Source of the DNA: Fimbriimonadaceae bacterium
GTDB taxonomy: Bacteria; Armatimonadota; UBA10988
Assembly (NCBI GenBank): GCA_020850355.1
Contig: JADZEX010000082.1
Span: 1-64,000, forward strand
Direction: 5' to 3'
Length of the DNA stretch: 64,000 bases
Shown piece after piece: positions 1,247 to 30,703 of the stretch (position 1 is the first letter of the stretch; each line of letters begins with the position of its first letter). The position numbers were made by a program, and so were the translations under genes. Below the pieces are notes generated by a model that saw only the letters and a list, made by a program, of their open reading frames with translations, was not told the origin of the DNA and did not search any database.

Positions 1247-2476
1247 TTGACCGCCGCACCACCTCGCCTCCGGCCTTTGCAGCCCACGCCGTCGCAACGC
1301 GACGGGGCTCCCAGCATCGTCTGGAGTGACCCGCTCGGCCTCGCCGAGGCGGTCGAGGTGCCGCACGCCGTGGCTGTGCTGATGACCCTCTTCGACGGCC
1401 AGCGGACGCTCCCGGCCGTGCTCGACGAGTGGCGCCAGATGGCCGGCGAGGAGCTCCCGCTGGAGTATCTCGCCGCGCTGGTGGCGCAGTGTGATCAGCA
1501 CCTGCTGCTCGACGGCGGTCGCTACACCGCCGCCCGCGACGAGGCCCTCGCCGCGTACCGCGCCGCCGGCGTCCGGCCAGCGCGGCATTGTCCCGGCGGC
1601 TACCCGGCCGAGCCCACCGCCTGCCGCGCCTTTCTCGACGACCTCCTGGCCCTGGCGCCGCCCCGGCCGGGGCAGCCGCTCGGCCTCGTCGCGCCGCACA
1701 TCGACTTCCACCGCGGCCGCCGCGGCTACGCCGCCGCCTACCAGGCGCTGCGCCACACCGCCGCCGACCTCTTCGTCGTCCTCGGCGTCGGCCACAGCTC
1801 CTGCTGCTGGCCCGACCCGCCGCCGCTCGCGACGCTCACGACCCTCGACTTCGCCACGCCGTTAGGCACCGTCCAGACCTCCGCCCCGGCCGTCGACCGG
1901 CTCCTGCAGCTCTACGCCGCCGTCGGTGGCGACGCTGCCGACCTGCTGCGCGACGAGCTGGTGCATCGCGAGGAGCACTCGCTCGAGTTTCAGATGCTGC
2001 TGCTGCAACACCTCTGCGGGCACCGTCCCTTCGCCGTGCTGCCGCTGCTGCTCGGCTCGCTGCATTCGTTCTACGACGACCCCGCCAACGTCGCCGGCCC
2101 ACGCGGCCTGGGACCGCTGCTCGGCGCGCTCGAGGCGCTGCTGGCGGAATGGCCGGGGCAGGTCGTGGTGATCGCCGGCGCCGACCTCTCGCACGTCGGC
2201 CCGCGCTTCGGCGGCGAGCCCGTGCAGCAGGCCGATCTGAGCTGGATCCAGGACGGTGACCACGCCGCCCTGAGCGACCTGGCGCAGCACGCCGGGCGCT
2301 TCTTCCGTCACTTCGCCGCCGACCAGAACGCCCGCAACGTTTGCAGCGTCGCCAACCTCTACGTCCTGCGCGCCCTGCTGCCCGAGGCGCGGTTCGCCCT
2401 GCTGGACCATGAGATCGCCTACGACCCGCAGCAGACCGTCAGCTTCGCCGCCGCCGCGCTGGAGTCTCTGGCGTGA
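1247..2476 (+). CDS. MEMO-family protein (AmmeMemoRadiSam system protein B)
   Basis: A 409-residue protein. TTG at 1247 is chosen because GGGAG sits 6 nt upstream; the frame further upstream is a shadow of the preceding gene. Residues about 1-110 form an N-terminal domain of the kind found before MEMO in several phyla. From about 140 the MEMO fold follows, with APHIDFHRGR, GVGHSS, HSLEFQMLLLQ and AGADLSHVG motifs that carry the conserved His/Asp/Glu positions of the family. MEMO proteins resemble class III extradiol dioxygenases. In bacteria they form the AmmeMemoRadiSam set with an AMMECR1 protein and a radical SAM enzyme; neither partner is in this window. The stop overlaps the start of the HD gene (GTGA), so the two are probably co-translated. 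The molecular function is not established. Confidence 0.85.
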   Translation: MTAAPPRLRPLQPTPSQRDGAPSIVWSDPLGLAEAVEVPHAVAVLMTLFDGQRTLPAVLDEWRQMAGEELPLEYLAALVAQCDQHLLLDGGRYTAARDEALAAYRAAGVRPARHCPGGYPAEPTACRAFLDDLLALAPPRPGQPLGLVAPHIDFHRGRRGYAAAYQALRHTAADLFVVLGVGHSSCCWPDPPPLATLTTLDFATPLGTVQTSAPAVDRLLQLYAAVGGDAADLLRDELVHREEHSLEFQMLLLQHLCGHRPFAVLPLLLGSLHSFYDDPANVAGPRGLGPLLGALEALLAEWPGQVVVIAGADLSHVGPRFGGEPVQQADLSWIQDGDHAALSDLAQHAGRFFRHFAADQNARNVCSVANLYVLRALLPEARFALLDHEIAYDPQQTVSFAAAALESLA

Positions 2477-3798
2477 GCAAGGTGATCCGCGACGCCCTGC
2501 ATGGCGACATCGAGTTCAGCCCCGCCGAACTGCGGCTGATCGACACCCTGCCGCTGCAGCGCCTGCGCGGCATCAAACAGCTCGGCACCAGTGCGCTGGT
2601 CTACCCTTCGGCCGTCCACACCCGCTTCGAGCACTCCCTGGGCACCTGCTGGGTCGCCAAGCGCCTGCTCGCCGAGCTCCGCCGCCGCGGCGTCGCGATC
2701 GAGTCCGAGGACGCCGTCGCGGTGCCCGCCGCCGCGCTGCTGCACGACATCACCCACATCCCCTTCGGCCACACCTTCGAGGACGAGCGCCGGGTCTTTG
2801 CGCGGCACGACGAGGATCCCGACCGCCTGGAGCGTTTCCTGGCCGCGCCGGACCTGGCCGCCGCCCTCCGCGCCACCGGCGCCGCCGAGCGCGTGCGCGC
2901 CTTGCTGACCCGCGACCCCGCCGCGCCGCGCCCCTATGCGCACGAGCTGATCAGCGGCACCGTCTGCGCCGACCTGCTCGACTACCTCCGCCGTGACGCC
3001 TTCCACACCGGCCTCGCGCAAGCCTACGACGACCGCCTCTTCCGCAGCTTCGACGTCGCCGCCGAGCACCTCACCGTCGACCTGCAAAAGGACGGCCTCT
3101 TCCGGCACGACGTGCTCAGCGAACTGATCCACCTGCTGCGGGTGCGCTACAACCTCACCGAGCGGGTCTACTACCACCACGCCAAGGCCGTCGCCGGGGC
3201 GATGATCTCCAAGGCCCTGGAACTGGCCCTGGCGGCCGGTCGAGTCGACCTGGCGGCGTTGATGCAGGTCGGCGACGAGGCCTTTCTGTGGTCGCTGGCC
3301 CAGGCCTGCGCCGATCTGCCCGATGTCGCCGACCTGCTCGACGACCTCGCCCGCCGCCGGCTCTACAAGCGGGTCTACCTGTTGACCGTGGCCGGTTACG
3401 GCCGACCGGGGGTCGACGCCGAGCAGCAGGCCGCGCTGGCCGCCACCTACCACTACGATGCCGCCGCCCGCCGTCAGGCCGAGGAGTCCCTCGCCGCCAA
3501 GCTGAAGCTGCCCGCCGGCGCGGTGATCCTCTACTGCCCCTCGCCTCGGATGCAGCTCAAGGAAGCGCACGTCCCGGTCCGTGTCGAACCCGGCCGGGTG
3601 GTCCCCCTGGCCACCCTCGGCAACCCCGAAGTCGCCAGCCTGGTCGCCAAACACCGCGCCCTCTGGGGCTTCTTTGTGGCCCTCCGCCGCGACCACGAAC
3701 ACCTCTTCGCCCGCGCCGGCCAACTCTGCGAAGAACGCTTCGGCCACGCCAACATGATCCGCCTCCAGGCCCGCGGGCAGTTGTCGTTCGAGTTCTGA
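2473..3798 (+). CDS. HD-domain phosphohydrolase (SAMHD1/dGTPase-like)
   Basis: A 441-residue protein starting with GTG at 2473, overlapping the MEMO stop by 4 nt. The N-terminus (IRDALHGDIEFSPAELRLID, then LQRLRGIKQLG) is the classic opening of the SAMHD1-like HD family. The metal-binding set is visible: HTRFEHSLG (His54), LLHDITH (His91-Asp92) and IPFGH. Such proteins hydrolyse deoxynucleoside triphosphates or other phosphoesters in the cytoplasm; the substrate here is not deducible. Its coupling to the MEMO gene suggests co-regulation rather than a known shared pathway. Confidence 0.88.
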   Translation: MSKVIRDALHGDIEFSPAELRLIDTLPLQRLRGIKQLGTSALVYPSAVHTRFEHSLGTCWVAKRLLAELRRRGVAIESEDAVAVPAAALLHDITHIPFGHTFEDERRVFARHDEDPDRLERFLAAPDLAAALRATGAAERVRALLTRDPAAPRPYAHELISGTVCADLLDYLRRDAFHTGLAQAYDDRLFRSFDVAAEHLTVDLQKDGLFRHDVLSELIHLLRVRYNLTERVYYHHAKAVAGAMISKALELALAAGRVDLAALMQVGDEAFLWSLAQACADLPDVADLLDDLARRRLYKRVYLLTVAGYGRPGVDAEQQAALAATYHYDAAARRQAEESLAAKLKLPAGAVILYCPSPRMQLKEAHVPVRVEPGRVVPLATLGNPEVASLVAKHRALWGFFVALRRDHEHLFARAGQLCEERFGHANMIRLQARGQLSFEF

Positions 3799-4769: not shown

Positions 4770-5507
4770 GTGAGCGGCATGACCCGACTGCCCTGCATGT
4801 TCGACTTCTGGTTGTTCGCGGAGCTGACCCAAGCCGAACGAAGCCTGCTCGAAGATCACGCCACTCGCCAGGTATGGACGCCGGGCGAGGTCGTCTTCGC
4901 CGAAGGCGATGAGGTCACGATGGTGCTGCTGGTCACTGCCGGGCGGCTGCGGCTCAGCCGGTTCTCGGCGCACGGGCGCGAACTCGTCCTGGGCTACCTG
5001 GATCCGCACGATCTGGTGGGGGAAGAAGCGCTGTTCCGGCCTGCCACGTACCCTTACACCGCCACCGCCTGCGAGCCGAGCCACACCTGCGCCTGTCGCA
5101 AGGCGGACATCGAGCAACTCGCCACGCGCGAACCGGCCCTGGGTGCCCGCCTCACGCGCCGCCTGGGCGAGCGGTTGGAGCAGGCTGTGCAGTTGACCGA
5201 CCTGGGCCTCTACGCTGTCCGCGAGCGCGTCCTGCGGGTGCTGGTGAGGCTCGCCCGCGAGCGCGGCTCCAGCGATGCCGCTGGCCGGCTGGTCGCTCCG
5301 CGGGTCACCCAGGAGGAACTCGCCAGCCTGGTCGGCGCCTCGCGCGTGATGGTCAGCAATGCCCTGCGTGACCTGCGCGAGGCAGGCGACGTCGAGCCGG
5401 CCGCGGGCCGTCGACTGCTCCTGACGGCGACGCCGCAGGCCGCCTTGCCGCCGAGGCGCTGCCGCTGCGACAACGACCCCGATCTCCTGCCCTGCCGTCC
5501 GAGCTGA
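4770..5507 (+). CDS. Crp/Fnr-family transcriptional regulator
   Basis: 245 residues. GTG at 4770 lies 4 nt after GGAGG; an ATG at 4779 is the alternative (13 nt after GGAGG). Residues about 10-125 form a cyclic-nucleotide-binding-type beta-roll (FAELTQAERSLLEDHATRQ, GEVVFAEGD, LVTAGRLRLSR), and the C-terminal part is a winged helix with TQEELASLVGASRVMVSNALRDL as recognition region. The protein has cysteines at the N-terminus (LPCMF), in the middle (CEPSHTCAC) and in a C-terminal tail (RCRCDNDPDLLPC), so a metal or redox sensor role is possible. That is inference. It probably regulates itself and the divergent iron-sulfur flavoprotein gene. Confidence 0.88.
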   Translation: MSGMTRLPCMFDFWLFAELTQAERSLLEDHATRQVWTPGEVVFAEGDEVTMVLLVTAGRLRLSRFSAHGRELVLGYLDPHDLVGEEALFRPATYPYTATACEPSHTCACRKADIEQLATREPALGARLTRRLGERLEQAVQLTDLGLYAVRERVLRVLVRLARERGSSDAAGRLVAPRVTQEELASLVGASRVMVSNALRDLREAGDVEPAAGRRLLLTATPQAALPPRRCRCDNDPDLLPCRPS

Positions 5508-14619: not shown

Positions 14620-15771
14620 ATGAGCGTGGTACTGGAGCCAGCACTGTCAGGCGGCGACATCGAGCTGGAACTCGGCTCTGGCGAAGTGGAGGCCGAGGAC
14701 CTTTCACCTGCCGAGATCACGGATCCGTTCGATCCTCGCCAGATTCGGATGACGGTCCGGCAACCGACGGTTCAGCTGCTGCTGACGCGGCTCCGCGAGG
14801 GAGAGGTGGAGCTCGATCCGGATTGGCAACGCCACGCCGGCATCTGGAAGGACCAGCAGCAGAGCCGCTTGGTTGAATCGCTGCTGATGAAGATCCCCAT
14901 TCCTGCGTTCTACTTCGACGAGCCCGAGTTCGATGGCCACTGGGTGGTGATTGACGGTCTCCAGCGACTGACCAGCTTGCAGCGCTTCATGCTCGAGACG
15001 CCCGGCCTCAGGCTGACCGGACTGGAGTTCCTGAAGGACCTGACAGGTCACTGCTACAGCGATCTCTCGCGGTCGCTCCAGCGGCGGCTGCTAGAGACCG
15101 AGCTGACGGTCGTCGTGATCGAAGCCGGCACTCCGTCCGCGGTGAAGTTCAATGTCTTTCGGCGTCTCAACACCGGCGGAATGCCGCTGACGCTCCAGGA
15201 GATCCGACACGCCCTCTACCCCGGACCGGTGGCGGCGCTGCTGCGGGGGCTGGCGGACAGCGGCGAGTTCGTCACGGCCACGGATGGTGCTGTTAAGCCG
15301 GCTCGGATGGCCGACCGAGAGTGCGTGCTGCGCTTCCTGGCGTTCTGCCTACATCCTTACGAGGATTACGATCGCGAGGAGCTGGGTGAGCTGCTCACTG
15401 AGTCGATGCGCCAACTGAACGCCATGTCAGACTTGGAGCGAGAGGAGTTGGGGCGCCGCTTCCGGCGTTCGATGCAGGCCGCGTCCCAGATCGTCGGTCG
15501 CCACGTCTTCCGCAAGTACTTCGGCCCCGACCAGCCACGCCACCCGGTCAACAAGGCGCTGTTCGAGTCGTGGGCAGTCGCCCTCGACCGTCGGACCGAC
15601 TCCGAGCTGCAGGCGCTTGCCGCGCACCAGGAGCAGGTCTTGGCGGGGTATGCGCAGCTCTGCTGCGACCAGGAGTTTGCGGCAGCGATCTCTGGTAGCA
15701 CCGGCGATGTGCGGAAGGTGAAGCTGCGCTTCGGGAAGATCGAGGCCATGCTCCAGGAGCTGGTGCCATGA
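14620..15771 (+). CDS. DUF262 (GmrSD N-terminal/ParB-like) protein, putative defence component
   Basis: 383 residues from ATG at 14620. The DUF262 core spans about residues 45-200. It includes ELDPDWQRHAGIW and VVIDGLQRLTSLQRF, with the D-G-x-Q-R nucleotide-processing motif, and FNVFRRLNTGGMPL. This fold is shared with the NTPase half of the GmrSD restriction enzyme and with ParB/Srx proteins, and many members act in phage defence. The rest is helical and of unknown role. Its stop overlaps the ATPase start (ATGA), followed by a third gene 2 nt further on, so the three products are almost certainly made together. I take this as subunit one of a Menshen-like system. The name is from memory and needs a profile search. 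Confidence 0.85.
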   Translation: MSVVLEPALSGGDIELELGSGEVEAEDLSPAEITDPFDPRQIRMTVRQPTVQLLLTRLREGEVELDPDWQRHAGIWKDQQQSRLVESLLMKIPIPAFYFDEPEFDGHWVVIDGLQRLTSLQRFMLETPGLRLTGLEFLKDLTGHCYSDLSRSLQRRLLETELTVVVIEAGTPSAVKFNVFRRLNTGGMPLTLQEIRHALYPGPVAALLRGLADSGEFVTATDGAVKPARMADRECVLRFLAFCLHPYEDYDREELGELLTESMRQLNAMSDLEREELGRRFRRSMQAASQIVGRHVFRKYFGPDQPRHPVNKALFESWAVALDRRTDSELQALAAHQEQVLAGYAQLCCDQEFAAAISGSTGDVRKVKLRFGKIEAMLQELVP

Positions 15772-16841
15772 TCCGGCGGCTGCAACTACAGCGGTTCAAG
15801 TGCTTTCTTGACCTTGACCTTGACTTCGCCCCCCTGACCCTTCTGGCAGGATGCAATAGCGCTGGCAAGAGCACCGTCCTGCAGTCCCTCGCCCTCCTGC
15901 GGCAAGCTGCCGAGCAGGATGGGACGCTCGCTTGCGGCCTGCCGCTGCAAGGCGACTATGTGGCACTGGGCGATGCCCGTGATGTGCTCTCGGACAGCGC
16001 TGACGAGGAGAGCATCCGGATCCGGCTCGACTGGGGCGAGCAACAGGCCGAGTGGCTGTTCGGGTACCGTCCAGGCTGGTCGGTCTTGACCGTCGAGAAC
16101 CCGGCGCCGCCGCCGCCGCTCCCTCCCTGCGGCGGAGACTTCCAGTACCTCTCGGCGGACCGACTTCGGCCGCAGGTCTGCCATCTGCTGGATGATCGGG
16201 CCATCCAACGGCGTTCTGTGGGCGCCTGTGGCGAGTATGCCGCGCACCTGCTGGGAGCCTTGGGCAGCGTGCATATTGACGGTTACCAACCGCATCCGGC
16301 CAGCAGGCAGCTCGACCTCAATGTCAACCAGGCCCTCGCCGAGCTATGTGACGGTGCTGAAGTTCAGGCCACAGTCGAACGCGACCGGGGGCTGGTGACG
16401 CTACGTTACATCCAGCGAGGGCCTGTTGGTGTGACCTACCGGCGTCCCCAGAATGTCGGTTTCGGCCTGACCGCCGTCCTGCCCGTGGTAGTCGCCGCGC
16501 TGACCACTCGGCCGGGCGGGTTGTTGGTCGTCGAGAACCCCGAAGCGCATCTCCACCCCGCGGCGCAGCGGCGGGTGACCGCGTTCCTGGCGCAGGTCGC
16601 TGCACATGGCGTGCAGGTGATCCTGGAGACTCATTCCGATCATGTGCTGAACGGTGTCCGCACGGCCCTGGTGCGCGGCGACCTGGCTGAGTCCCAGGTT
16701 GCCTGCCACTTCTTCTCGGCGCCGGGCACCGTCGCCTCGCCCCGACTCCTGGCTGACGGCAGCATTGCCGAACCGCCGGCTGGCTTCTTCGATGAGTGGG
16801 AGCTCGCCCTCGATGAGATCCTGTTTGGGGAGCACCGCTGA
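15768..16841 (+). CDS. DUF3696-type AAA ATPase, putative defence component
   Basis: 357 residues. It opens with LQRFKCFLDLDLDFAPLTLL, the usual start of RecF/SMC-like ATPases. Walker A is GCNSAGKST (about residues 28-36). Near the C-terminus GGLLVVENPEAHLHPAAQRR is the signature-adjacent Walker B in the ENPEAHLHP form typical of DUF3696 ATPases, and ILETHSDHVLNGVR carries the H-switch. The middle holds a variable insertion. Such ATPases serve as sensor or motor in defence modules and here would control the DUF262 partner. It overlaps the upstream gene by 4 nt and is followed after 2 nt by the third component. Confidence 0.9.
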   Translation: MIRRLQLQRFKCFLDLDLDFAPLTLLAGCNSAGKSTVLQSLALLRQAAEQDGTLACGLPLQGDYVALGDARDVLSDSADEESIRIRLDWGEQQAEWLFGYRPGWSVLTVENPAPPPPLPPCGGDFQYLSADRLRPQVCHLLDDRAIQRRSVGACGEYAAHLLGALGSVHIDGYQPHPASRQLDLNVNQALAELCDGAEVQATVERDRGLVTLRYIQRGPVGVTYRRPQNVGFGLTAVLPVVVAALTTRPGGLLVVENPEAHLHPAAQRRVTAFLAQVAAHGVQVILETHSDHVLNGVRTALVRGDLAESQVACHFFSAPGTVASPRLLADGSIAEPPAGFFDEWELALDEILFGEHR

Positions 16842-16843
16842 CG

Positions 16844-17773
16844 ATGGCCGGTGTGCTCAACGACCTTTCGTTCGTTGCGGCCGACACGCCCGCCGAGGTG
16901 CTTGGCCGCTTGCAGACCTTGCTGGCCGTGCAGGCGGCAGCGCGGCAACTCGACCCCGGCTGGCAGCTCCAGGCGACCCTCGCCCGGCACGGGCTGATGA
17001 ACCGCGAGTTGGCGCCCGACTACCCGCTGGCCAGGGCAATCAACGACATCCAGGCGCCGGTCAATGTGCGGCAGTTGCTCAAGGCCACATTCGCCAAGAT
17101 GGCGTTGCTGAGGGCCGACGATCTCGATGACGCCGGAGAGGAGTGGACCGTCGGCGACGAGTCGTGCCCAGCTCTGATGGCCGCTCACAAGCTCGACCGG
17201 TTGGCCATCAGCCTTGACAGCAGCGACCGCTGGCGAGTTGCCTCGGTTGAGCTGACGTGCCGCACCCTGACACCCGCAGGCGGCCTCACCGAGCTCCTGC
17301 GTCCCGTGCGGCATGCCTCGCAGCCTGGTCACATCAAGGAGCACGCCGCCTGGCTCGCGCCTGACCGTACCATTCGGTCCTGGCAACACCTGTGGGAGCA
17401 GTGGTCCGGGTGGTTCCCAGACTTGGAGATTGGCAGGGATGTGGTCGAGCACACCAGGAAGTTGCCAGCCAATGATGCAACGCTATTCCGAACCCTGCAG
17501 CGGCATCTTGCCGCGCTGCAGAAGTTCGCAGCGACCAGCCCAAGTGAAATCGCTGGGGCCGCCATCGACGTCGTGGCGAGCCCCGACTCCGAGGCCACCC
17601 TCAGGCAGTACCCTCCATCGCGCCAACACCCGTGCCATGATGGGGAGGTGGTGCTATTCTCCTGGCACACCAGGCTCGGCGATGGGCGCCGCATGTACTT
17701 CGCTCTGCACCGGGGCCGGGTCGTCATCGGGTACCTCGGGCCGCACCTCCCGACGGTACGCCACCCGGGTTGA
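16844..17773 (+). CDS. Unknown protein, third member of the DUF262/ATPase module
   Basis: 309 residues, with ATG 2 nt after the ATPase stop. No domain is recognised with confidence. The C-terminal about 60 residues (VVLFSWHTRLGDGRRMYFAL, VVIGYLGPHLPT) resemble a short terminal motif often seen in proteins of phage-defence loci, where a His/Arg-rich pocket could form an effector site; this is inference. The N-terminal two thirds look mostly helical. Strict coupling to the two upstream genes argues that it is a structural or effector subunit of the same system. Confidence 0.75.
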   Translation: MAGVLNDLSFVAADTPAEVLGRLQTLLAVQAAARQLDPGWQLQATLARHGLMNRELAPDYPLARAINDIQAPVNVRQLLKATFAKMALLRADDLDDAGEEWTVGDESCPALMAAHKLDRLAISLDSSDRWRVASVELTCRTLTPAGGLTELLRPVRHASQPGHIKEHAAWLAPDRTIRSWQHLWEQWSGWFPDLEIGRDVVEHTRKLPANDATLFRTLQRHLAALQKFAATSPSEIAGAAIDVVASPDSEATLRQYPPSRQHPCHDGEVVLFSWHTRLGDGRRMYFALHRGRVVIGYLGPHLPTVRHPG

Positions 17774-17868: not shown

Positions 17869-20073
17869 ATGTCGCTGACCGTTGCGCCGCCCGCTGAACG
17901 CGGCACGCTGACCCGTGGGCCGGAGGATCTCTCGCCGTGGAGCCGCGCTCTGCGGGACGACGTGGCGGCCCATGCCACCGCCTACGACGAACGCCTGCTG
18001 CTGGTGGCCGAGAGCTTCCGCGCAACCGCCGACGAGCCGCAGCGCGAGTTGCGGTGGGCGCATTCGGTGGAGACCGTGCTGCGCCGCTGTCCGGTGCGCG
18101 TGCGGGTTGGGGAGCGGCTGGTTGGGTGGCACCCGAACTGCCAGAGCGACGAGGCGACGCGGGCCAGCCTGCAGGAGGCGCGAGCCTATCTGCACTCGCA
18201 GCAGTACTGGTGTGCTGCCAGCGAAGGGCATCTGGCGCTCGACTACCCGGCGATCTTGCAGCGCGGGCTGGACGACTACCGGCGGGAGATCGAGCAGCGC
18301 GCGGGCGAGGCCGGTGACGAGGCGCAGCGGGTCTTCTTGGCCGCGGCGCGCCAGGCGCTGGTGGCCTTGCAGGGTTACATCGGACGCTACGCAGAGCTGA
18401 CGGCGACGCTGGCGGCCGAGGAGCTCGACCCAGACTGGCGGGCCGAGTTGCAGCAGATCGCCGCGATCTGCCGGCAGGTGGTGGGTGGACCGGCGCGGAC
18501 CTGGCGCGAAGCGCTGCAACTGGCCTGGTTCTGCCTGTTGGGGGTCTGCCTCGAGGAGTCCGAGATTCACCACTGCTTCGGGCTCGGCCGGCTCGACCAG
18601 TGGCTGCTGCCGTACGTCGTGGCCGACCGCACCGCGCGGCGGCTGGACGAGGCTGAGTTGGACGACCTGCTGGACCAGATGCAGATCAAGTGCAACGAGT
18701 TCAGCGGCCGGTCGATGAGCGCCGTGATCATGGGGGTCGCCGGCCGCCGGCCGGACGGCTCGTCGGGCTACAACGAGCTGTCCCACCGGCTGCTGTACAG
18801 CAGTTGCCGCGTGCGGATGTACTTCCCGGGGCTCGACATCTTCTGGCACCGCGACCTGCCGGCCGACTTCGTGCGGGATGCCTGCACGCTGCTGCGAAAC
18901 GGCAACGGGCAGCCGTCGTTCTTCAACGACGACCTGATCATCGCCGGCCTGCGGCGCTATGGGCTGCCCTACGAGCACGCGGTCGACCATTTGCCGTCGA
19001 CCTGTACCGAGACCAGCATCCAGGGTCGCAGCAACCCCTGGGTGGCGTGGCCTTACCTGAACCTGCCGCTGGCCCTGTTGGGGGCGCTCTACGGCGGCGT
19101 GCGACCCGATGACGGGCAGCCGGTTGGCCCGGCGACCACGCTGCCGCAGACCTACGACGAGCTGCTGGCGGCGTTTGACGTGCAGCTCAAGCACCAGGCC
19201 GACGAGGCGGTGCGGCGGGGCAATCGCGACCAGGCGGTGGCTGCCGAGGCGCGGCCGTTCCCGCTGCTGAGCTGCTTCATTCAAGGCTGTCTCCAGCAGG
19301 GCCGCAACATCAGCCACGGCGGTGCGACGTACACCTTCCTGCAGCCCGAGGCGGTCGGCGTCTCGAACTGCGTCGACAGCCTGGCGGCGATCCGGACGCT
19401 GGTGGTGGACCGGCAGCGCTACAGCCTGGACGACTTCCGGGCGGCGCTGACCGCCAACTGGGAGGGTCACGAGGCGTTGCGCCGGGCGGTCCAGCGGGAC
19501 TGCCCGAAGTACGGCAACGACGACGCCTGGGTCAACGACCTCTTCGCCTGGGTCGCCGGCCGCTGGTGTGACCACCTGGAAGGCCAGCGCAACCACTTCG
19601 GCGGGCCGGTCTTCCCCGGGTTCCTGGGCTGGACGGTCTGGATTCAGTTTGGCCAGCAGACCCCGGCCACACCCGACGGGCGGGCGGCGGGCGAGCCGCT
19701 GGCCAACAGCCTGGCGCCGGCCAGTGGGGTGAAGTTGCGGGGAGTGCCGTCGATGCTGCTATCGGCCAGCGGTCTCGACCATGCCCGCGGTCTGGGCGGG
19801 ATTACCTTCAACGTGCGCTTCAACGGCGCCAGTCTGGCGGAGCCGGGCGGCCCCGAGCGATTGGCGGCCATCGTCGGCACGGCGCTCGGCGAGCTGGGCC
19901 TGTACATGACCCAGATCGAGATCGCCTCGACCGCCACGCTGCGAGCGGCGCAAGAGCGGCCGGCCGACTACGCGGACCTCTACGTGCGGATCGGCGGCTA
20001 CCTGGTGCCCTTCACGCTGCTCGGACCGGCCGCCCAGAACGAAGTCATCGGCCGGGCGGAGCTGGCCCTGTGA
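17869..20073 (+). CDS. Glycyl radical enzyme (PFL-like, predicted eliminase/dehydratase)
   Basis: 734 residues. The PFL-like barrel runs through most of the chain. The thiyl-radical Cys is Cys379 in PSTCTETS, with Glu381 two residues on; a Glu here is the acid/base of the eliminase branch (glycerol/diol dehydratase, choline lyase, hydroxyproline dehydratase, isethionate lyase), whereas pyruvate formate-lyase has Cys-Cys. The C-terminal glycyl loop is YVRIGGYLVPF followed by AAQNEVIGRAEL, making Gly710 the radical site. The loop sequence C-T-E-T differs from the usual G-C-V-E, so the substrate is not one I can name. The activase gene overlaps the stop by 4 nt. Expression presumably occurs under anoxia because the radical is oxygen-labile. 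Confidence 0.9.
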   Translation: MSLTVAPPAERGTLTRGPEDLSPWSRALRDDVAAHATAYDERLLLVAESFRATADEPQRELRWAHSVETVLRRCPVRVRVGERLVGWHPNCQSDEATRASLQEARAYLHSQQYWCAASEGHLALDYPAILQRGLDDYRREIEQRAGEAGDEAQRVFLAAARQALVALQGYIGRYAELTATLAAEELDPDWRAELQQIAAICRQVVGGPARTWREALQLAWFCLLGVCLEESEIHHCFGLGRLDQWLLPYVVADRTARRLDEAELDDLLDQMQIKCNEFSGRSMSAVIMGVAGRRPDGSSGYNELSHRLLYSSCRVRMYFPGLDIFWHRDLPADFVRDACTLLRNGNGQPSFFNDDLIIAGLRRYGLPYEHAVDHLPSTCTETSIQGRSNPWVAWPYLNLPLALLGALYGGVRPDDGQPVGPATTLPQTYDELLAAFDVQLKHQADEAVRRGNRDQAVAAEARPFPLLSCFIQGCLQQGRNISHGGATYTFLQPEAVGVSNCVDSLAAIRTLVVDRQRYSLDDFRAALTANWEGHEALRRAVQRDCPKYGNDDAWVNDLFAWVAGRWCDHLEGQRNHFGGPVFPGFLGWTVWIQFGQQTPATPDGRAAGEPLANSLAPASGVKLRGVPSMLLSASGLDHARGLGGITFNVRFNGASLAEPGGPERLAAIVGTALGELGLYMTQIEIASTATLRAAQERPADYADLYVRIGGYLVPFTLLGPAAQNEVIGRAELAL

Positions 20074-20984
20074 GCACGCCGCGCAGCACCTTGCGGGCGG
20101 TCGTCGGGACGGTCTTCGCGGTCGACGAGACGGCCACGCACGACGGCCCGGGGCTGCGCATGACGGTCTACCTGAAGGGCTGTCCGCTGCGCTGCGTCTG
20201 GTGCCACAGCCCGGAGTCGCAGGCGCCCGAACCGGAGATCGTCTGGTACGCGACCCGCTGCCAGCGCTGCGGCGCCTGTGTCGAGGCCTGCCCCCAACAG
20301 ATCCGGTCGTTCAGCGGCGATGGCGCCGACCCGGCCGCCTGTGAGCTCTGCGAACGCTGCGTCGAGGCCTGCTCGTCGCAGGCGGTGGAGGTCAAGGGCC
20401 AGTTGCTGACGGCGGGCGAACTGGCCGACCGGGCGCTGCGCCTGAAGCCGTTCTACGTCCACGGTGGCGGCGTCACCCTGACCGGCGGCGAGCCGACCTT
20501 CCAGCCGGAGTTCTGCCTGGCGGCGCTGACGCTGCTGCACGAAGGTGGGCTGCACACGGCCCTGGAGACCACCGGGCTGTGTCGCCCCGCCGTGCTCGAC
20601 AGTCTGCGCCCCGTCTGCGACCTGTTCCTGTTTGACCTGAAGCACGCCGACGACGCGCTGCACCGGCGCGACACCGGCGTCTCCAACGAGCGCATCCTGG
20701 CCAATCTGGCGCACCTCACCGCCAGCGGCGCCGAGGTGCTGGTGCGGGTGCCGTGCATTCCGGGCCACAACGACGACCCGGCGACCATCAAGGCGATCGC
20801 CCGGACGGCGGCGGCTTGCGGCGTCCGGCAGATCAGCCTGTTGCCCTACAACCCGGCGACGCCGGGGAAGTACGCCTGGCTGAACCGCGACTATCCCCTC
20901 GGCCGCCGCGAACCGCAGAGCCGGGACCAGATGGAGCACCTGGAGGCGCTGGCCGCCGCGGCCGGGCTGCAGGTGGTGCGCTGA
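20070..20984 (+). CDS. Glycyl-radical enzyme activating enzyme (radical SAM)
   Basis: 304 residues from GTG at 20070, coupled to the upstream radical enzyme (GTGA). The radical SAM cluster motif is C-x3-C-x2-C at Cys38, Cys42 and Cys45 (YLKGCPLRCVWCHSPES). An inserted ferredoxin-like domain follows with two Cys clusters (CQRCGACVEACP and CELCERCVEAC), typical of the activases of dehydratase-type glycyl radical enzymes rather than the short PFL activase. GGVTLTGGEPTFQ is the SAM-binding GGE motif. It uses SAM and a 4Fe-4S cluster to abstract hydrogen from Gly710 of its partner. Confidence 0.93.
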   Translation: MSTPRSTLRAVVGTVFAVDETATHDGPGLRMTVYLKGCPLRCVWCHSPESQAPEPEIVWYATRCQRCGACVEACPQQIRSFSGDGADPAACELCERCVEACSSQAVEVKGQLLTAGELADRALRLKPFYVHGGGVTLTGGEPTFQPEFCLAALTLLHEGGLHTALETTGLCRPAVLDSLRPVCDLFLFDLKHADDALHRRDTGVSNERILANLAHLTASGAEVLVRVPCIPGHNDDPATIKAIARTAAACGVRQISLLPYNPATPGKYAWLNRDYPLGRREPQSRDQMEHLEALAAAAGLQVVR

Positions 20985-29845: not shown

Positions 29846-30703
29846 ATGATGACGTCGGAGTTCAGTTTGCCTGCTACCACCGATGCTGTCTTCGCCGCCG
29901 CCGCGGCCGGCGATCGGCCTGCGCTGATCGCTCTGCTCGAGGCCGACGCCGGCCTGCTCTGTGCCCGCCGCGTGGGCGCCGACGGCCCGCGCGGCAGCAG
30001 CCGCAAGACCTTGCTGCAGGTCGCCGCGGAGGCCGGGCACTTGGAGCTGGTGCAGGCCTTGGTCGACCGCGGTGCCGAGCTCACCGAGCGGGCCGAATGG
30101 GGCTATCCGGCGGTGATGCACGCCGCTTGGGCCAAGCAGCAGGCGGTGGTCGATTGGTTCCTGGGCGCTGGCGCGGCTCACGATCACGGCCAGGGCGATC
30201 CGTTCTACGGGCTGGGGGTGGACCTCAACAACGCGGGCCGCATGGGCTGGACTGCGATCGTCCGGCGGCATGTGGAGCGCGATCCCCTGGCGGTGCATCG
30301 GCGCGGCCTGATCGGCGATTCACCGCTGCATTGGCCGGCGCACGACAACCACACCGACATCGTCACGTTGCTGCTGGACGCTGGCGCGGTGATTGAGGCC
30401 GACGAGGTCGGGCTGTATGGCGGCAAGCCCTTGCACTGGGCGGCTGAGCATGCCCCGGCCACCACACGGCTGCTGCTGGAGCGTGGGGCCGACCCCAACA
30501 GCCGCAACGAGATGCCGGGCGAGATGCTGGGGATCACGCCGCTGATCATGTGCGCTCGCCAGCGCAACGACTGCGCCGAGTGCGCCGAGTTGCTGCTGGC
30601 CGCCGGGGCCGACCCGGCCGCCCGCGGGGCGGACGGGCGGACCGCGCTGGACTGCGCCACCGCCGCCGGGCTGCCGCGCCTGACCGCGTTGCTCAGTCGG
30701 TAG
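29846..30703 (+). CDS. Ankyrin-repeat protein
   Basis: 285 residues from ATG at 29846; the Shine-Dalgarno is weak. At least five ankyrin-type units are visible: LLQVAAEAGHLELVQALVDR, PAVMHAAWAKQQAVVDWFLG, PLHWPAHDNHTDIVTLLLDA, PLHWAAEHAPATTRLLLERG and ADPAARGADGRTALDCA. No other domain or signal peptide is present. It probably mediates protein-protein contacts in the cytoplasm. Its 3' end overlaps the convergent gene by 11 bp. Confidence 0.85.
   Translation: MMTSEFSLPATTDAVFAAAAAGDRPALIALLEADAGLLCARRVGADGPRGSSRKTLLQVAAEAGHLELVQALVDRGAELTERAEWGYPAVMHAAWAKQQAVVDWFLGAGAAHDHGQGDPFYGLGVDLNNAGRMGWTAIVRRHVERDPLAVHRRGLIGDSPLHWPAHDNHTDIVTLLLDAGAVIEADEVGLYGGKPLHWAAEHAPATTRLLLERGADPNSRNEMPGEMLGITPLIMCARQRNDCAECAELLLAAGADPAARGADGRTALDCATAAGLPRLTALLSR

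Follow-up and report, generated by a model that had tools for sequence, protein, structure and literature searches.

A Menshen operon in a Fimbriimonadaceae bacterium with a predicted RelE/YoeB-like domain in its third protein

Menshen is a known defence system encoded by the genes nsnA, nsnB and nsnC, and mutation or deletion of its DUF262 gene abolished resistance, according to the accessible part of a review (PMC10952713). Another three-gene system, ptuXYZ, is described in the accessible part of Gerdes 2025 (PMC11980606) as a DUF262 protein, a PtuA-like ATPase and PtuZ, which has a degenerate PIN-like N-terminal domain and a YoeB-like C-terminal domain. Here, we compared with these systems three adjoining genes from a Fimbriimonadaceae bacterium of the phylum Armatimonadota, located on the plus strand of a 64,000-nucleotide stretch of DNA (contig JADZEX010000082.1, positions 1 to 64,000; hereafter the window). 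By its protein families the locus is a complete Menshen operon, and its third protein, NsnC, is predicted to carry a RelE/YoeB-like (BECR) fold at its C-terminal end, behind a putative PIN-like part.

The best PADLOC families of the three proteins were those of Menshen, in gene order. NsnA matched PDLC03877 (422 bits, E value of 5.5e-127, residues 23 to 381), NsnB matched PDLC03878 (2.6e-94, residues 1 to 352) and NsnC matched PDLC03879 (3.9e-48, residues 3 to 303 of 309). In Pfam, GmrSD_N (PF03235, 1.1e-20) was the sole family found for NsnA at an E value of ≤1, whereas NsnB matched AAA_21 (2.2e-20), AAA_15 and DUF3696 (PF12476, 7.2e-07, above the cut-off of that family), and no Pfam match was obtained for NsnC. 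The initial annotation of this DNA had recognized a Menshen composition in three abutting genes and had listed the motifs DGLQR, GCNSAGKST, ENPEAHLHP, ETHSD and GYLGPHLPT. Indeed, nsnA and nsnB overlap in an ATGA and nsnB is separated from nsnC by 2 nucleotides, each motif is present in the protein named, and the profile search that the annotation had proposed, run here with PADLOC, matched all three proteins. Its suggestion that a divergent third protein might define a new subtype gained no support and was rejected on the end-to-end match of NsnC to PDLC03879. Moreover, the nucleotide pocket of DUF262 is conserved in 89 NsnA sequences (D112 in 88, G113 in 89, Q115 in 88 and R116 in 89), and in an alignment of 89 NsnB sequences Walker A residues G28, N30, G33 and K34 are invariant (89/89), E256 and N257 of the Walker B region are each found in 86, and the histidine of ETHSD is conserved. 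On family membership, gene order and these nucleotide-binding motifs, the locus is a complete, ordinary-looking representative of this known defence system, and we infer protection in this bacterium from the family.

The same gene arrangement recurs elsewhere. We scanned with an alignment of NsnA, using one genome per species, and the counts describe the best 80 loci: NsnB (>250 bits) adjoins NsnA in 73 of them, the other 7 including contig ends and fragments, and an open reading frame (ORF) on the same strand, mostly of 270 to 330 amino acids, follows as third gene in 70. The three-gene order is seen in many phyla among these loci and also on plasmids, where the NsnA query gave 115 records. 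It was present in 13 of the 14 plasmid regions that were opened, the remaining one (Rhodococcus) having the DUF262 gene only, and the complete plasmid operons came from many genera. With NsnC as query, plasmids gave no match at 1e-5, and viral contigs held three weak NsnA-like loci (E values of 9e-7 to 8e-6). Within the phylum, NsnA-like proteins were found at 1e-20 in 33 of 291 genomes, and 18 of 40 NsnA-like places were opened besides the window's own, at least one of which (L053) was broken by a contig end. NsnB adjoined in two of these 18 (genomes G110 and G114); NsnA alone was thus rejected as a marker of Menshen, since 16 of the 18 places were without NsnB. The NsnA-like DUF262 proteins at L051 to L066 (329 to 505 amino acids) have no adjoining NsnB, and NsnA profiles alone over-call the system. 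At 1e-3, the NsnC profile matched in 10 of the 291 genomes, with a near-whole-profile match in the window's genome and in G114; in G110, an intact third gene of 309 amino acids matched in its C-terminal part only.

We then considered the third protein. An AlphaFold2 model of NsnC built from 65 sequences reached a predicted local distance difference test score (pLDDT) of 94.0 and a predicted template modelling score (pTM) of 0.80. In a Foldseek search with this model, all nine rows with a probability of ≥0.7 among the best 50 were toxins of the RelE/ParE superfamily, including YoeB, RelK and YafQ. With VIA-align, toxins of this superfamily filled all but one of the first 37 rows (Z scores of 8.0 to 4.9, aligned to the model between about residue 190 and residue 309), the exception being an insecticidal toxin, and nearly the whole toxin chain was covered, with 86 of 90 residues for 9lew (Z 8.0) and 83 of 83 for YoeB (2a6r, Z 7.6). 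Since one superfamily fills the list and the toxin is covered whole, we predict a RelE/YoeB-like fold for this part of NsnC. The CRISPR effector Cami1 was also aligned, on residues 192 to 309 (8phb, Z 4.4; 8phj, Z 4.2), one of these entries being ribosome bound (70S). Residues 1 to 161 gave VapC (5ecd, Z 4.8), AF1683 (Z 4.6) and VapC (3zvk, Z 4.5), scores that lie near those of the unrelated Chp1-Tas3 (Z 4.3) and LpxB (Z 4.0), and acidic positions 7, 74, 92 and 100 are moderately conserved. That this PIN-like part may be inactive is suggested by the degenerate domain of PtuZ, as given in the accessible text of PMC11980606. Across 84 NsnC sequences, an N-terminal N-E-x-S motif and the last 60 residues hold many of the best-conserved positions.

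In YoeB, a glutamate, an arginine and a histidine are catalytic. Alignment of the C-terminal part of NsnC with 10 YoeB sequences from the same phylum by hhalign covered 79 columns and YoeB residues 1 to 80, with a score of 19.3, whereas 100 column shuffles reached 10.2 at best. It placed R283 of NsnC (R in 77 of the 84 sequences) on the R of YoeB EHRLVY, and H301 (H in 47, K in 25, H or K in 72) on the H of YoeB RYHY. Several observations weigh against the predicted fold and activity. Foldseek gave no match to NsnC in the PDB at an E value of ≤0.001, the top row by E value being an oxidoreductase with a probability of 0.09. VIA-align re-aligned the top 1000 chains of Foldseek, so that the absence of other folds is no evidence against them, and by the tool's own caution Z scores of 7 to 8 are possibly background. 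The hhalign probability was 8.4% for the C-terminal part and 1.5%, over 25 columns, for whole NsnC. The E of YoeB GKPE fell on E250 of the window's protein, a variable column (E in 22 and D in 13 of 84). The conserved acidic position 248, E in 66 of the 84 sequences and D in the window, lies two columns before it. The spacing from R to H, 18 in the window as in YoeB, is 20 in 50 of the 84. A sequence search of the PDB with the NsnC profile returned one irrelevant row (E value of 0.24). Taken together, we regard the two-domain anatomy as predicted, on support short of strict significance.

A BECR fold need not cut RNA: NsnC could instead bind a target such as gyrase, in the manner of ParE, or serve as a structural subunit. 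ParE2 and PrpT indeed share the fold (VIA-align Z of 6.3 and 6.4), and no residue of NsnC cleanly matches the acidic one of YoeB; position 248 is non-acidic in 16 of the 84 sequences, and in 12 of them position 301 has something other than H or K (gaps included in both counts). However, the conservation of R283 and of H or K at 301, both aligned with catalytic residues of YoeB, argues against this reading, and we consider a non-cutting NsnC quite unlikely.

We thus favor, with a probability of roughly 0.57, a mechanism in which an NsnA sensor and an NsnB ATPase switch restrain NsnC and release it upon infection to cut RNA. The anatomy of NsnC on which this proposal draws is predicted from a model. 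NsnA, a DUF262 protein of ParB/Srx fold in which the HNH (DUF1524) nuclease of GmrSD and BrxU is absent, would sense an infection-linked signal, which may be DNA or a nucleotide. The ATP-driven switch and scaffold would be NsnB, an ABC/OLD-like ATPase with no Toprim domain detected. Together they would keep NsnC inactive, taking the place of an antitoxin. Among ORFs of at least 60 amino acids, nsnC is flanked by nsnB and by the gene of a glycyl-radical enzyme. Once freed by infection, the C-terminal BECR domain of NsnC would cut RNA, probably ribosome-bound mRNA as for RelE and YoeB, and phage production or cell growth would be halted.

The first two proteins bear on a different explanation, namely that Menshen is a DNA restriction system of the type IV kind, in which modified phage DNA is recognized, and perhaps nicked, by NsnA, with an ATP drive from NsnB and an accessory role for NsnC. 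In the NsnA model (pLDDT 89.7) the N-terminal part is mixed and the C-terminal half consists of helices throughout, and its best PDB match was BrxU (E value of 8.6e-04), a type IV enzyme of the GmrSD family, followed by weaker matches to ParB/Noc CTPases and SspE. In addition, PtuX, the counterpart of NsnA, is termed a putative nuclease in the accessible text of PMC11980606, and the OLD/Toprim nuclease that the accessible text of PMC10952713 places in Menshen would put the effector in a subunit other than NsnC. However, NsnA had no DUF1524 or HNH match in Pfam at an E value of ≤1 and has a helical C-terminal half, and the missing HNH match gives no indication that NsnA cleaves. NsnB has 357 residues, and no Toprim family is among its 10 Pfam matches at an E value of ≤1, a search at the level of sequence. 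Moreover, a toxin-like domain is predicted in NsnC, and most of the best loci described above have a third ORF after NsnB. Restriction by NsnA is therefore unlikely in our view, and we retain the restrained RNA-cutting effector as the preferred reading. ABC ATPases usually carry an acidic pair in the Walker B region, in contrast to the E-N pair of NsnB. This pair hints at a switch operated by ATP binding, or by slow hydrolysis.

Other proteins of the phylum resemble NsnC or YoeB. The window's genome also has a typical YoeB toxin gene (L171, G000:C80:52914-53153; PF06769, 5.6e-32). At L015 (genome G246), a 118-amino-acid ORF matches the NsnC profile (E value of 4.0e-4) and, below its cut-off, Pfam ParE-like_toxin (E value of 0.034), a faint tie of NsnC to the RelE/ParE superfamily at the sequence level. 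The NsnC profile also matched, with E values of 6.5e-05 to 5.3e-04, the ends of proteins of 440 to 588 amino acids without any Pfam domain above cut-off, at L201 (4636-5958, G135), L204 (543-1877, G043), L202 (5632-7374, G157) and L203 (2494-4260, G141). By eye, their C-terminal modules keep H..., [YH][FW] and G.HL, and the R of position 283 is kept in one of the four; the L201 gene overlaps the end of an ORF whose terminus, also by eye, resembles sigma-70 region 4.

Judged from their domain order, Menshen and ptuXYZ appear to be one system. The NsnC model and fold search were completed before the description of PtuZ was consulted and gave the same anatomy. The name Menshen is absent from the accessible text of PMC11980606, and among the papers searched none from 2025 on had both names; a study of domain polymorphism in Menshen (Li et al. 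2025, NAR gkaf357), known to us by title, may already link them. The two-domain anatomy is already in print as ptuXYZ, and a RelE-like domain may already be reported for Menshen in Li et al. 2025. The two literatures appear to cover one system, and the third Menshen protein gains a testable identity as a RelE/YoeB-like effector. If the two names do denote one system, point mutations in NsnC would bear directly on how Menshen stops phage. The locus itself is one further carrier of a known defence system. More tentatively, we propose as possible, though doubtful as a whole, that Menshen, being the same as ptuXYZ, is an antitoxin-less, phage-triggered toxin system in which NsnA and NsnB provide sensing and restraint and the RelE/YoeB-like domain of NsnC kills, and that the C-terminal module shared by the otherwise unlike 440- to 588-amino-acid proteins is interchangeable among several undescribed operons.

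The surroundings of the operon were also compared with it. GC content at third codon positions (GC3) is 0.82 in nsnA, 0.77 in nsnB and 0.82 in nsnC, against 0.89 to 0.94 in the nine picked genes closest to the operon, of which five lie upstream (from 7235) and four downstream (to 23521); across all 43 other picked ORFs of the window it ranges from 0.79 to 0.94. In 1-kb windows, GC content is 64 to 68% over the operon and 68 to 74% around it. In a tree of 88 NsnA proteins, long paths separate the window's protein from its nearest rows, which belong to Thermodesulfobacteriota, Cyanobacteriota, Pseudomonadota and Chloroflexota. The tree and the lower GC3 fit horizontal transfer without proving it. 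The gene directly downstream encodes a glycyl-radical enzyme (PFL-like) and is followed by one for a radical-SAM protein, probably its activase (Pfam; 17869-20984). Matches to the glycyl-radical gene occurred in 13 of 31 genomes, with 33 to 36% identity in genomes of the same family and order and no more than 58% in the others, and at this distance they were set aside as a basis for an empty-site comparison.

A PADLOC scan of 20 of the 43 other picked ORFs gave matches at 1e-5 for three: a dGTPase model (2473-3798, 1.6e-07), a TIR effector (4770-5507, 6.5e-06) and an ankyrin-like protein (29846-30703) matching the candidate defence model PDC-M72A (2.2e-18, perhaps via its repeats) as well as Ankyrin (4.8e-09). 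A local defence island was rejected on these 20 neighbors, among which there is no convincing or complete second system. The initial annotation had counted homologues outside defence islands against a defence role; the few defence matches nearby agree with that objection, but they do not outweigh the family match. The lack of a convincing second system, together with flanks formed by genes for an acetyltransferase and the glycyl-radical enzyme (Pfam), would also suit a stress or housekeeping toxin module acting in the host. We judge such a role very improbable, because the proteins best match the models of a system whose phage resistance was lost on knock-out of a gene (accessible text of PMC10952713), plasmids of many genera carry complete operons, 4 of 13 having transposase or recombinase genes annotated within the stretch that was opened, and GC3 of the operon lies below that of its neighbors. 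The features of the locus are listed in Table 1.

Table 1. Features of the Menshen operon, in coordinates of the window
Feature	Position	Strand	Description and basis
nsnA	14620..15771	+	DUF262 protein (GmrSD_N, ParB/Srx-type fold), 383 amino acids, C-terminal half all-helical; PADLOC, Pfam, model
DGLQR nucleotide-pocket motif, NsnA residues 112-116	14953..14967	+	Conservation in 89 sequences
nsnB	15768..16841	+	ABC/OLD-like ATPase with C-terminal DUF3696, 357 amino acids; PADLOC, Pfam
Walker A GCNSAGKST of NsnB	15849..15875	+	Conservation in 89 sequences
Walker B region ENPEAHLHP of NsnB	16533..16559	+	Conservation in 89 sequences
ETHSD (switch His) motif of NsnB	16626..16640	+	Sequence and conservation
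nsnC	16844..17773	+	Predicted effector, 309 amino acids; PADLOC, model (pLDDT 94.0, pTM 0.80)
PIN-like (VapC) part, NsnC residues 1-161	16844..17326	+	Putative; weak VIA-align matches, PtuZ description in accessible text of PMC11980606
RelE/YoeB-like (BECR) domain, NsnC residues 190-309	17411..17773	+	Predicted; Foldseek, VIA-align, hhalign with YoeB
D248-S249-E250 acidic stretch of NsnC	17585..17593	+	hhalign with YoeB; conservation in 84 NsnC
R283 of NsnC	17690..17692	+	Aligns with R of YoeB EHRLVY
H301 of NsnC, in GYLGPHLPT	17744..17746	+	Aligns with H of YoeB RYHY

Among known systems, the locus is closest to Menshen, with which it shares all three proteins, the gene order and near end-to-end profile matches. 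It differs in that its nearest NsnA among the matches listed, from Desulfohalobiaceae, is just 48% identical, and in the D instead of E at position 248 of NsnC, which it has in common with one of the other 83 sequences. With ptuXYZ, as described in the accessible text of PMC11980606, it shares in the same order a DUF262 protein, a PtuA-like ATPase and a protein with a putative PIN-like and a predicted YoeB-like BECR part, whereas PtuX is named a nuclease there and the anatomy of the window's NsnA shows none. NsnC resembles RelE and YoeB toxins and Cami1 in the predicted fold of its C-terminal part and in the R and H positions, but it is a two-domain protein of 309 amino acids whose operon also encodes a DUF262 protein and an ATPase, and its acidic residue lacks a clean match. 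The type IV-like enzymes GmrSD, BrxU and SspE have in common with NsnA a DUF262 domain with D-G-x-Q-R; here, in contrast, no DUF1524 HNH nuclease was found, and the ATPase and the BECR-like protein are separate subunits. PARIS, Gabija and Septu use an ATPase of the same broad class, and AriA, GajA and PtuA appear below NsnB in the PADLOC list, but with scores far under it, and these systems have other partner genes (in part from the accessible texts of PMC12839542 and PMC10952713). Finally, NsnB differs from OLD/Gabija-type nucleases in having no Toprim fusion detected in Pfam.

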